Source: Akkermansia muciniphila (GTDB taxonomy: Bacteria; Verrucomicrobiota; Verrucomicrobiia; Limisphaerales; UBA9464). Taken from it: 37,942 nt of DNA. How positions within the stretch are numbered: the first letter of the stretch is position 1; the number at the start of each line of letters is the position of its first letter. Below the pieces are notes generated by a model that worked only from the letters and a program-made list of their open reading frames with translations, was not told the origin of the DNA and searched no databases. Both the position numbers and the translations under genes were made by a program. Of the stretch, positions 10,495 through 12,698 are shown piece by piece. The stretch covers positions 1 to 37,942 of the forward strand of contig CAMASJ010000006.1 of the NCBI GenBank assembly GCA_945860685.1, given 5' to 3'.

Positions 10495-10629
10495 CACGCG
10501 AAGGCGCCAAGACGCGAAGGGGTGCAGGGAATCCGGGACGGACGACGCCGGTCACCGTTCGGTGTCCGGTGCCGATTCGGGCGACTCGCAGCCTCCCTCT
10601 TCTCCTCCGCGGCTTTGCGGCTCTATGTG
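10495..10629. repeat. Dispersed GCGAAG/CGCCAAG-type repeat with inverted arms
   Basis: Left arm cacgcgaaggcgccaagacgcgaagggg (10495-10523); right arm ctcctccgcggctttgcggctctatgtg (10602-10629), whose reverse complement CACATAGAGCCGCAAAGCCGCGGAGGAG resembles the left arm. Confidence 0.55.
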
Positions 10630-10645
10630 CCAATCAGCTCCACGG

Positions 10646-11113
10646 TCAGCCGGGCGGTAGGAGCTCCACCCCGTACTTCGGCGCGGCCTCGACCAGCTTG
10701 GCTATGGCCTCTGGGGACGGCGGCAGCGGAGCGGTTTGGCGGTCCGGCAGACGGGTGCCGATTTCGGCGAAGAAGTCGTCCAGACCAGCGGGCGTCACGG
10801 TGACGATCATCCGACCCGGGACGGAACCGACGTTCCTGAAGTGGTGGGGAATGTCGCGGCGTCCGAAGACGAACCCGCCCGCACCGACGCGGACAGCCTC
10901 GCCGGCAATGATGAACTCGAACTCGCCGTCGATGACATAGAATGCCTCGTCCTCGAGGTGGTGGATGTGTGGAGGAGTTCCGTTGCCCGGGAGGACGAAC
11001 GCCTCGAAGACGAAATAGGCCCCGTCGGTCTGGGAACCGGTGAGCAGGAACGTATAGCGGTCGCCGACCACCGAATAGACGGGAGCCGAGCCGGACACAG
11101 GCAACGGATTCAT
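10646..11113 (-). CDS. Cupin-domain protein (quercetin dioxygenase-like)
   Basis: FEAFVLPGNGTPPHIHHLEDEAFYVIDGEFEFIIAGEAVRVGAGGFVFGRRDIPHHFRNVGSVPGRMIVTVTP, both cupin motifs. Start at MNPLPVSG preferred over 11269. Confidence 0.88.
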   Translation of the reverse strand: MNPLPVSGSAPVYSVVGDRYTFLLTGSQTDGAYFVFEAFVLPGNGTPPHIHHLEDEAFYVIDGEFEFIIAGEAVRVGAGGFVFGRRDIPHHFRNVGSVPGRMIVTVTPAGLDDFFAEIGTRLPDRQTAPLPPSPEAIAKLVEAAPKYGVELLPPG

Positions 11114-11322
11114 CGCGCGGCACGATGAAGACCCCGGCCGAAAGACGCGAGCCAACGCCGCCTTCAGGGACTCCGCCAGATTCGGACCTGCATCGAAGTC
11201 GGATCTGGGCAATGCAAGGAATCGGGCAGGTTCATCGGCGCCCGCAAGGCGCGGGGATTCTTGGAACAAGTGGGCGAAGGTGCTGATGTGCGACGCTCAT
11301 TCACAACCCCATGTCGCTGGCG

Positions 11323-11770
11323 GACGTGTCCCCAATGAGCTCCTCAGCATACTAACCGAATGCAACTAGTAGCGAAACTTTAGCCTCTCACCAGCATTTG
11401 TCGCGACCACTCTACCGTTTGAGTCAAAAACAATTGTATAGCCAATGTCACGCAGACCCCGATTAAACTTCACCTCAAACCGATTAGTGGCGGCAAGATT
11501 GACCGTGATAAATGCGTACTTGGTGGATCTTGGGGAAGGATCACCAAATGACGAGACTATGTTTGTTACATTGGCTACTAGCTCATCATCTGAAATAAAA
11601 CTGCCATCAGCCAATTGCACTCGAACCCAAGTATGAAGCGCAACAGGATCACCACCGCGGCTGCCGGGAATCTGCCCCACAGATACAACCACAACCAAAG
11701 CGACCACAACCGTTGAAATCAACGCGACATTAATTTTCATATACACCTTCCAACCGATAAGGGACACGTC
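11323..11770. repeat. 10-bp perfect inverted repeat (gacgtgtccc / gggacacgtc) bracketing the AT-rich ORF
   Basis: gacgtgtccc at 11323-11332 and gggacacgtc at 11761-11770. Confidence 0.7.
11366..11740 (-). CDS. Hypothetical secreted or membrane-anchored small protein, AT-rich ORFan
   Basis: MKINVALISTVVVALVVVVSVGQIPGSRGG (signal/TM) then LHTWVRVQLADGSFISDDELVANVTNIVSSFGDPSPRSTKYAFITVNLAATNRFEVKFNRGLRDIGYTIVFDSNGRVVATNAGERLKFRY. SD-like GGAAGG upstream. Visibly AT-richer than its surroundings. Confidence 0.65.
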   Translation of the reverse strand: MKINVALISTVVVALVVVVSVGQIPGSRGGDPVALHTWVRVQLADGSFISDDELVANVTNIVSSFGDPSPRSTKYAFITVNLAATNRFEVKFNRGLRDIGYTIVFDSNGRVVATNAGERLKFRY

Positions 11771-11868
11771 TGTAGGCTACCCTACTTCGCCGACGGACCC
11801 GGGACATCGGTTGGCGGCGAGCCTACGCAGCGGGCGGCCGAACAGGAAAGCGGCTAAAAGAGGGTCGT

Positions 11869-12156
11869 TCAGCGGTGCCACCAGTAGCCTGGACGGCGGT
11901 GGAGGTGCATGACGGCCTTGAGGTGGATGGCGTTGGGGCCGAAGCTGTAAACCAAGGCGAAGGGGAAGCGCCGGAGGTTGATCTTGCGGTTTTCGCCCCG
12001 GATCTAGGGCCAGCGTTCCGGTTCGGCCTCGATGCGGCGCAGGGCGTGCCCGAACTCGTCCAAGAAGTCGTCTCCCAGTCCCGGCTGGCGCTCGTCATGC
12101 CACAGGGCCGCGCCGACCAGTTCCTCGTCGGCCTCAGGATGGCTGACGATGGGCAT
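11869..12156 (-). pseudogene. ParE/RelE-family toxin interrupted by an in-frame TAG (12004-12006)
   Basis: MPIVSHPEADEELVGAALWHDERQPGLGDDFLDEFGHALRRIEAEPERWP*IRGENRKINLRRFPFALVYSFGPNAIHLKAVMHLHRRPGYWWHR*; the frame remains homolog-like after the stop. Confidence 0.82.
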
Positions 12157-12379
12157 GGAGCTGGGCGCGGGCTTCCCGGAGGGTTTCCAGGACGGGGCGG
12201 CAGCGGACCCGGCCCTCCTCGATTTCACGGGAGCGGCGGTCGATCACGTCGAGCCATTCCGCTTCGGTGTCGGTCTCCAAGGCGGGGTCGAGGCTGGCGA
12301 TGAGCTGGTGGGCCAGATAGGCCCGGTCCACTTCCGGCAGCGCCAGCACTTCGGCGACCTTTTCAGCGGTCATGCTCAT
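12134..12379 (-). CDS. Addiction-module antitoxin (putative addiction module component family)
   Basis: MSMTAEKVAEVLALPEVDRAYLAHQLIASLDPALETDTEAEWLDVIDRRSREIEEGRV; overlaps the toxin start by 23 bp. Confidence 0.85.
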   Translation of the reverse strand: MSMTAEKVAEVLALPEVDRAYLAHQLIASLDPALETDTEAEWLDVIDRRSREIEEGRVRCRPVLETLREARAQLHAHRQPS

Positions 12380-12520
12380 GCTGGTTCAGAGTGGCCGGTG
12401 TCGCCGGGCTGGCAAGCTCCGCTCCGGGGCTCGGGCAGCTTGGCGGGATTCGAGTGGGTAAGGGACACGTCTACAAATCCAGTAGGACCCTCGATGGGAG
12501 TCCGTGTCTTTCTCCAAAAG

Positions 12521-12536
12521 CGCGAGCGGACTCGCG
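12521..12536. repeat. REP-like hairpin cgcgag-cgga-ctcgcg; shares 15 bp (inverted) with 31429-31443
   Basis: Perfect 6-bp stem and 4-nt loop; gcggactcgcgcact at 12526-12540 is the reverse complement of agtgcgcgagtccgc at 31429-31443. Confidence 0.5.
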
Positions 12537-12698
12537 CACTCCATGACGCTCACGCGCTACTTCGGCCGCTGGAACTGCCTTCCAACCTCGGGGTGAACTA
12601 TCCGGGCTGGAATTCCCCGATCGGTGTGAAGTGTCCCCGATGGGACTGCCCGGAACGCTTGGAACAACGGATGCGGAGTCCGGATCGGAACGACAGCC

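Follow-up and report, generated by a model that had tools for sequence, protein, structure and literature searches.

What is a single AT-rich gene, bounded on both sides by the same ten bases in opposite orientation, doing in a GC-rich chromosome? The window, by which we mean the whole stretch of 37,942 nucleotides analysed here, is contig C6 of a 4.22-Mb draft genome in 398 contigs (G000, 88.8% complete); the host is a freshwater member of the Verrucomicrobia, and so are the congeneric MAGs with a recorded origin, probably G006 and G004. The window has 66% GC, while the interior of the segment (11333–11760) has 46.3% between flanks of 63% and 67%, and it is the sole strongly AT-rich stretch, since all 428-bp segments with 52% GC or less overlap it. 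GACGTGTCCC at 11323–11332 and GGGACACGTC at 11761–11770 form a perfect 10-bp inverted repeat around the gene. A sequence-only reading had described such a segment, with one small open reading frame carrying a signal or transmembrane stretch and a Shine-Dalgarno sequence, and had not recognised the protein family; all of this held up on closer analysis (Table 1). The protein had no match in Pfam, NCBIfam or PADLOC and no homologue in any of the 18 further genomes of the genus. A single weak match among 50 family genomes, 44 amino acids in G029, falls within a protein of 300 amino acids that looks unrelated. AlphaFold2 with single-sequence input gave a pLDDT of 42.6, and the model was set aside; a search for a second copy of the cassette found none. 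Judged by its N-terminus, the protein is probably exported or secreted.

Table 1 Features of the window around the AT-rich cassette (RE, right end; LE, left end).
Feature	Position	Strand	Remarks
Variable stretch	10496..12495		Outer flanks 95–98% identical in G004 and G013; L112, L113, L175
Passenger ORF, 124 aa	ATG 11740 to 11366	minus	N-terminus hydrophobic, signal-like; without family match
Shine-Dalgarno-like GGAAGG	11746..11751	minus	5 bp ahead of the passenger ORF ATG
Right-end-type (RE) site GGTAGCCTACAGACGTGTCCCT	11760..11781	minus	5' of passenger gene; core 11761–11770
Left-end-type (LE) site ATTGGGGACACGTCCGCCAGCGA...	11285..11332	minus	3' of passenger gene; core 11323–11332; shorter than other LEs
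Third core copy, GACGTGTCCCTTA in gene direction	12462..12471	minus	Possible upstream site of a second cassette
Toxin-antitoxin-like pair	11823..12379	minus	Between sites 12471 and 11781; co-directional with passenger gene

The significance of a 10-bp inverted repeat by itself had to be rejected, as the window contains 92 perfect 10-mer inverted pairs no more than 600 bp apart. We nevertheless take this repeat as real, because GGGACACGTC has 61 exact copies in the 4.22 Mb against 3 for the reversed word used as a control, because the window holds a third copy, and because an extended form of the site recurs elsewhere. This extended site, AAGGGACACGTC[C/T]GTAGGCTACC at 11760–11781, has matches of 94–97% at other loci; with up to three mismatches, it occurs 13 times in its own genome (12 besides that of the window) and the control 0 times. 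A search of 59 genomes found it in just four, each of them congeneric, and IMG/VR contained none. Read in gene direction, the 5' boundary of the cassette is GGTAGCCTACAGACGTGTCCC-TTATCGG. Some of the 61 core copies are not element ends and lie in apparently ordinary coding sequence (for example L016 and L052), and many are in plain intergenic positions or within genes.

A multi-copy element that encodes a RAYT/TIRYT-like Y1 (HUH) transposase has this word at the core of its terminal repeat. In its autonomous form, a 348-aa transposase lies between the terminal repeats AGGGACACGTCC...GGACGTGTCCCT. At L037, on contig C178 of the same genome, the extended site follows an intact 348-aa transposase after ~275 noncoding bases, and upstream of the gene are inverted copies of GGGACACGTCC and then left-end sequence; L037, L156 and L157 all have (A/G)GGGACACGTCC upstream and GGACGTGTCCC downstream of the transposase gene. 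The L037 transposase (L037:397–1443) scores 38.3 bits against Pfam Y1_Tnp (cut-off 23) and has NHFH at 61–64 and YIDLNP (Y172) as read from sequence; the window contains no such transposase. Against the RAYT equivalog NCBIfam NF047646 it reaches 55.1 bits, below the cut-off of 80, and is thus a relative of that equivalog rather than a member. In G006 (L156), a transposase 97% identical to it has the same right end directly 3'. These 1.4-kb elements are dispersed, multi-copy and found at shared loci in several genomes. In G004 and G013, numerous contigs break off inside a right end or the transposase, the pattern to be expected when assembly collapses an element with many copies, and from contigs ending in the repeat we infer that both genomes carry intact transposase copies. 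Related transposases (~40% identity) were present in 19 of 19 genomes of the genus, mostly in several copies each. A right-end hairpin was not supported, since the single-strand folds of five right ends (z −0.5 to +2.7) were no better than those of shuffled sequence; GTAG is found in the right end, and two left ends fold at z about −2.

Two other repeats were seen. Further congeneric genomes (L202, L203, L204, L205, L208) have Y1-transposase elements with terminal repeats of a second family, AAAAGGGACAGGCT, and in 20 loci no AT-rich cassettes were seen beside elements of this type. At 12501–12558 of the window lies a dispersed palindromic repeat (...AAAGCGCGAGCGGACTCGCGCACTCCATGACGC...), ~86–98% identical in many loci of G000, G004, G006 and G013, which is unrelated to the cassette ends and often close by.

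Solo and miniature copies of the element ends bracket AT-rich single genes. In four congeneric MAGs such genes begin right after right-end copies, some of them in tandem, and mostly start just downstream of the right end and run in the same direction. The 300 bp downstream of right-end-like sites had a GC fraction below 0.53 at 28 of 54 sites, compared with 10 of 54 for the 300 bp upstream (Fisher p 0.0005), and the open reading frame points away from the end in 21 of the 27 AT-rich downstream segments that have one (binomial p 0.006). Both p-values should be taken as no more than indicative, because orthologous or nested sites among the 54 make the counts not fully independent and presence of the site was part of the reason for choosing the loci. 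By eye, many cassette frames start with a signal-like or transmembrane stretch, and two carry known repeats (WG and ankyrin). Tandem arrays are present at L099 (three cassettes), L040, L117 and L105 (two each), and many separators between cassettes are just 22–95 bp long.

Comparison of related genomes showed that what lies within the brackets varies as a block: other DNA may take its place, it may be absent, or it may turn up at a different locus. The breakpoints coincide with end repeats or lie close to them. Between the orthologous loci L105 (G004) and L174 (G013), 95.4% identity stops exactly at AGTATCCTACGGACGTGTCCCTTATGGGTTTCCA, with the last base of the right-end site; past this breakpoint lie unrelated genes, ankyrin-repeat in one and lipoprotein-like in the other, and identity (96%) returns at CGACAAGCGACGGTATTGGGGACACGTCCC, ~15 bp before the opposite repeat. 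L055, in the genome of the window, has neither cassette, the entire 4.1-kb block being absent. Cassettes are likewise present in L041, L040 and L098 (the last between 32-bp direct repeats) and absent from the orthologous L111, L101/L166 and L160, respectively. L099 and L117 have a 180-aa gene and the downstream chromosome in common, and between that gene and the right end their cassettes differ. One unit was found at two loci with unrelated flanks, L042 (G000) and L171 (G013): it consists of a left-end motif, a right end, a gene and a second right end, its homology begins at CCGATGGGGACAG and stops after GTGTCCC-AATG, and the L171 copy is internally deleted. The 4-kb loci of L042 and L171 gave no transposase match. 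In addition, L041 and the non-orthologous L107 have a 119-bp cassette piece in common (91.6%). Immediately after the unit in L171 (L171:2323–3999) is a gene that looks SIR2-like by eye, possibly a defence gene.

How does the window itself compare? Relatives with conserved flanks and no cassette boundaries at these repeats would have spoken against a cassette, and this is not what is seen. G004 and G013 have kept the flanks, the search turned up no counterpart of the passenger protein at the orthologous locus, and the contigs run into LE or RE sequence of the transposon in place of the cassette. The two G004 contigs flanking the locus are presumably neighbours. Orthology with G013 stops 24 bp outside the third core copy; the left break, at 10496, is not at a repeat. 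The left-end-type site of the cassette aligns with the left ends of L045, L037 and L048, with an internal deletion in the cassette's copy. The sequence-only reading had proposed a compact mobile cassette or MITE-like vehicle with one secreted unknown protein. The swaps, absences and two-locus unit in relatives favour the cassette. A plain MITE that carries a passenger between its own termini does not describe the window cassette, because the ends flanking the gene differ in type, a right end on one side and a left end on the other, face inside-out and derive from the Y1-transposase element.

The explanation that we favour, with moderate confidence, is that the segment is a passenger cassette with one gene and belongs to a terminal-repeat transposon system (RAYT/TIRYT-like Y1 HUH). 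We read the cassette as having moved as a unit, either through the transposase acting in trans or through recombination from one of its repeats to another, and the Y1/HUH family appears, from the genomes compared, to help shuffle genes among close relatives. In such a system, the transposase, in cis or in trans, would excise and insert single-stranded units. To judge by the L042/L171 unit, what moves would begin at a left end, pass over the first right end and stop at a later one, taking along the gene that lies between the two right ends. Short arrays could be built by repeated rounds or by right-end/right-end recombination, and the window cassette (right end 11781–11760, gene, left end 11332–11323) could be a passenger left stranded at a site that the element itself occupies in relatives. 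Looking for empty sites, cassettes with the same termini and target duplications, as had been recommended, yielded absences and similar cassettes in relatives; no target duplication, excision product or circle was seen in the genomes compared, and catalysis of cassette movement by the transposase is inferred. The inside-out ends, the single-copy state of the window cassette, the break at 10496 away from a repeat and the unsupported right-end fold count against the explanation. A more ambitious version is doubtful: the family could be a Y1 HUH gene-cassette platform, an integron analogue without a tyrosine integrase, in which the right end would act as an integron-like attachment site, capture single-gene cassettes in one orientation, separated by right-end copies, and allow exchange among loci and species.

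Repeat-to-repeat recombination would leave identical breakpoints, and the transposase may merely have spread the repeats, with RecA-dependent exchange between plain dispersed copies swapping intervening, horizontally acquired DNA. Breakpoints at shared repeats are what this scenario predicts, and the elements are indeed multi-copy and at the same loci in several genomes. It does not predict the co-directional bias (21/27), and it fits poorly with many separators being a mere 22–95 bp and with the L042/L171 unit, which has short end motifs at both edges, unrelated flanks and no full element nearby; we regard it as rather unlikely, though to be taken seriously. It is improbable that separate insertions of the element happened to land on either side of an AT-rich ORFan that is otherwise ordinary resident DNA. 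The 61 core copies, many in plain intergenic places or inside genes, and the different types of the two ends around the window gene would suit such a coincidence, whereas the excess of AT-rich DNA downstream of sites (28/54 versus 10/54 upstream), the L105/L174 swap and the absence of homologues of the passenger protein from the rest of the genus (18 genomes) would not.

Since AT-rich, co-directional, single-gene cassettes look integron-like, and G004 and G013 have integrases above the curated cut-off, the cassettes might belong to an ordinary integron (IntI/attC), the repeats being incidental. However, neither the genome of the window (88.8% complete) nor G006 has an integrase above the cut-off, and the breakpoints are at transposon repeats rather than GTTRRRY. 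An attC scan of the cassettes gave 4 matches against 3.2 expected and detected the attC of the G013 integron, the positive control; the scan was a simple one, its thresholds loosened until this single control was found, stricter settings having missed it. Because the cassettes have no attC above chance while the scan detected a true integron attC, we consider integron activity very improbable.

RAYT-type transposases are usually seen as domesticated enzymes that spread tiny palindromes only, and known mobile insertion cassettes and TIMEs use IS4- or Tn3-type ends, unlike the present ends, which come from a Y1 HUH element and, at the window, enclose the gene inside-out. The L042/L171 unit resembles a mobile insertion cassette in being a passenger gene between transposon ends with no transposase gene. 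Mobile insertion cassettes of the MIC231 type, TIMEs and mosaic non-autonomous transposons are transposase-less passenger DNA between transposon ends, thought to move in trans (PMC6542083, PMC4133298). In TIRtrons, or TIRYTs, long terminal inverted repeats lie on either side of a RAYT-like tyrosine transposase (Di Nocera et al. 2013, PMC3733652). Our element is like them in having a Y1 HUH transposase gene within inverted repeats that are also scattered singly and in clusters, and its repeat GGGGACAC matches the TIRYT motif GGGGWSAS (PMC3733652); it differs in being multi-copy and IS-like and in the turnover of end-adjacent single-gene cassettes. The TIRtron paper leaves passenger genes unmentioned (0 occurrences of 'passenger'; PMC3733652). 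REPtrons and REPINs with TnpAREP share a related transposase family (NF047646, 55 bits) and short non-autonomous repeats tied to the transposase (PMC3116915, PMC6006769, PMC8266576), whereas here the score is below the NCBIfam cut-off of 80 bits and a GTAG foot followed by a palindrome is not clearly recognisable; according to the literature, REPtrons do not seem to transpose as a unit (PMC6006769). Integron arrays are similar in their AT-rich co-directional single-gene cassettes, in short arrays beside a recombinase gene, and different in that here the sites are transposon right ends, no attC was found and the own genome has no integrase above the cut-off. The components are of known kinds (TIRtrons, REPtrons, mobile insertion cassettes, TIMEs). 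The part that appears to be new is the passenger cassettes at RAYT/TIRYT ends: the open-access literature searched contained neither passengers or cargo of RAYT, REPIN or TIRYT systems nor such cassettes with orthologous swaps. If RAYT-type ends do package, exchange and stack whole genes, they would join integrons, ISCR elements and mobile insertion cassettes as a means of gene capture. They would also help to account for the spread among freshwater Verrucomicrobia of AT-rich ORFans that are patchily distributed and probably exported. For a direct test, the boundaries of the cassettes supply short DNA substrates.

The window cassette could be one of two in a stretch that also takes in the toxin-antitoxin-like pair, the order in gene direction being site 12471, the pair, site 11781, the 124-aa gene, the left end at 11332 and a cupin-like gene. 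The frames of the pair are on the minus strand at 12004–12228 and 12134–12379; the pair has a TIGR02574 match of 24 bits, under the cut-off, and by eye the toxin frame is RelE/ParE-like. An in-frame TAG near 12004 interrupts the toxin frame, reflecting either a pseudogene or an assembly error. The DNA of the pair is 75% identical to a stretch in G040, a genome from another family. Genuine integron integrases occur in relatives at L193 (G004, C11), L194 (G013, C31) and L195 (G013, C206); L194 ends near its integrase in GACTCGTTTCTTGACCGAA, a sequence that in L105 also marks the 4.1-kb insert at its left edge.
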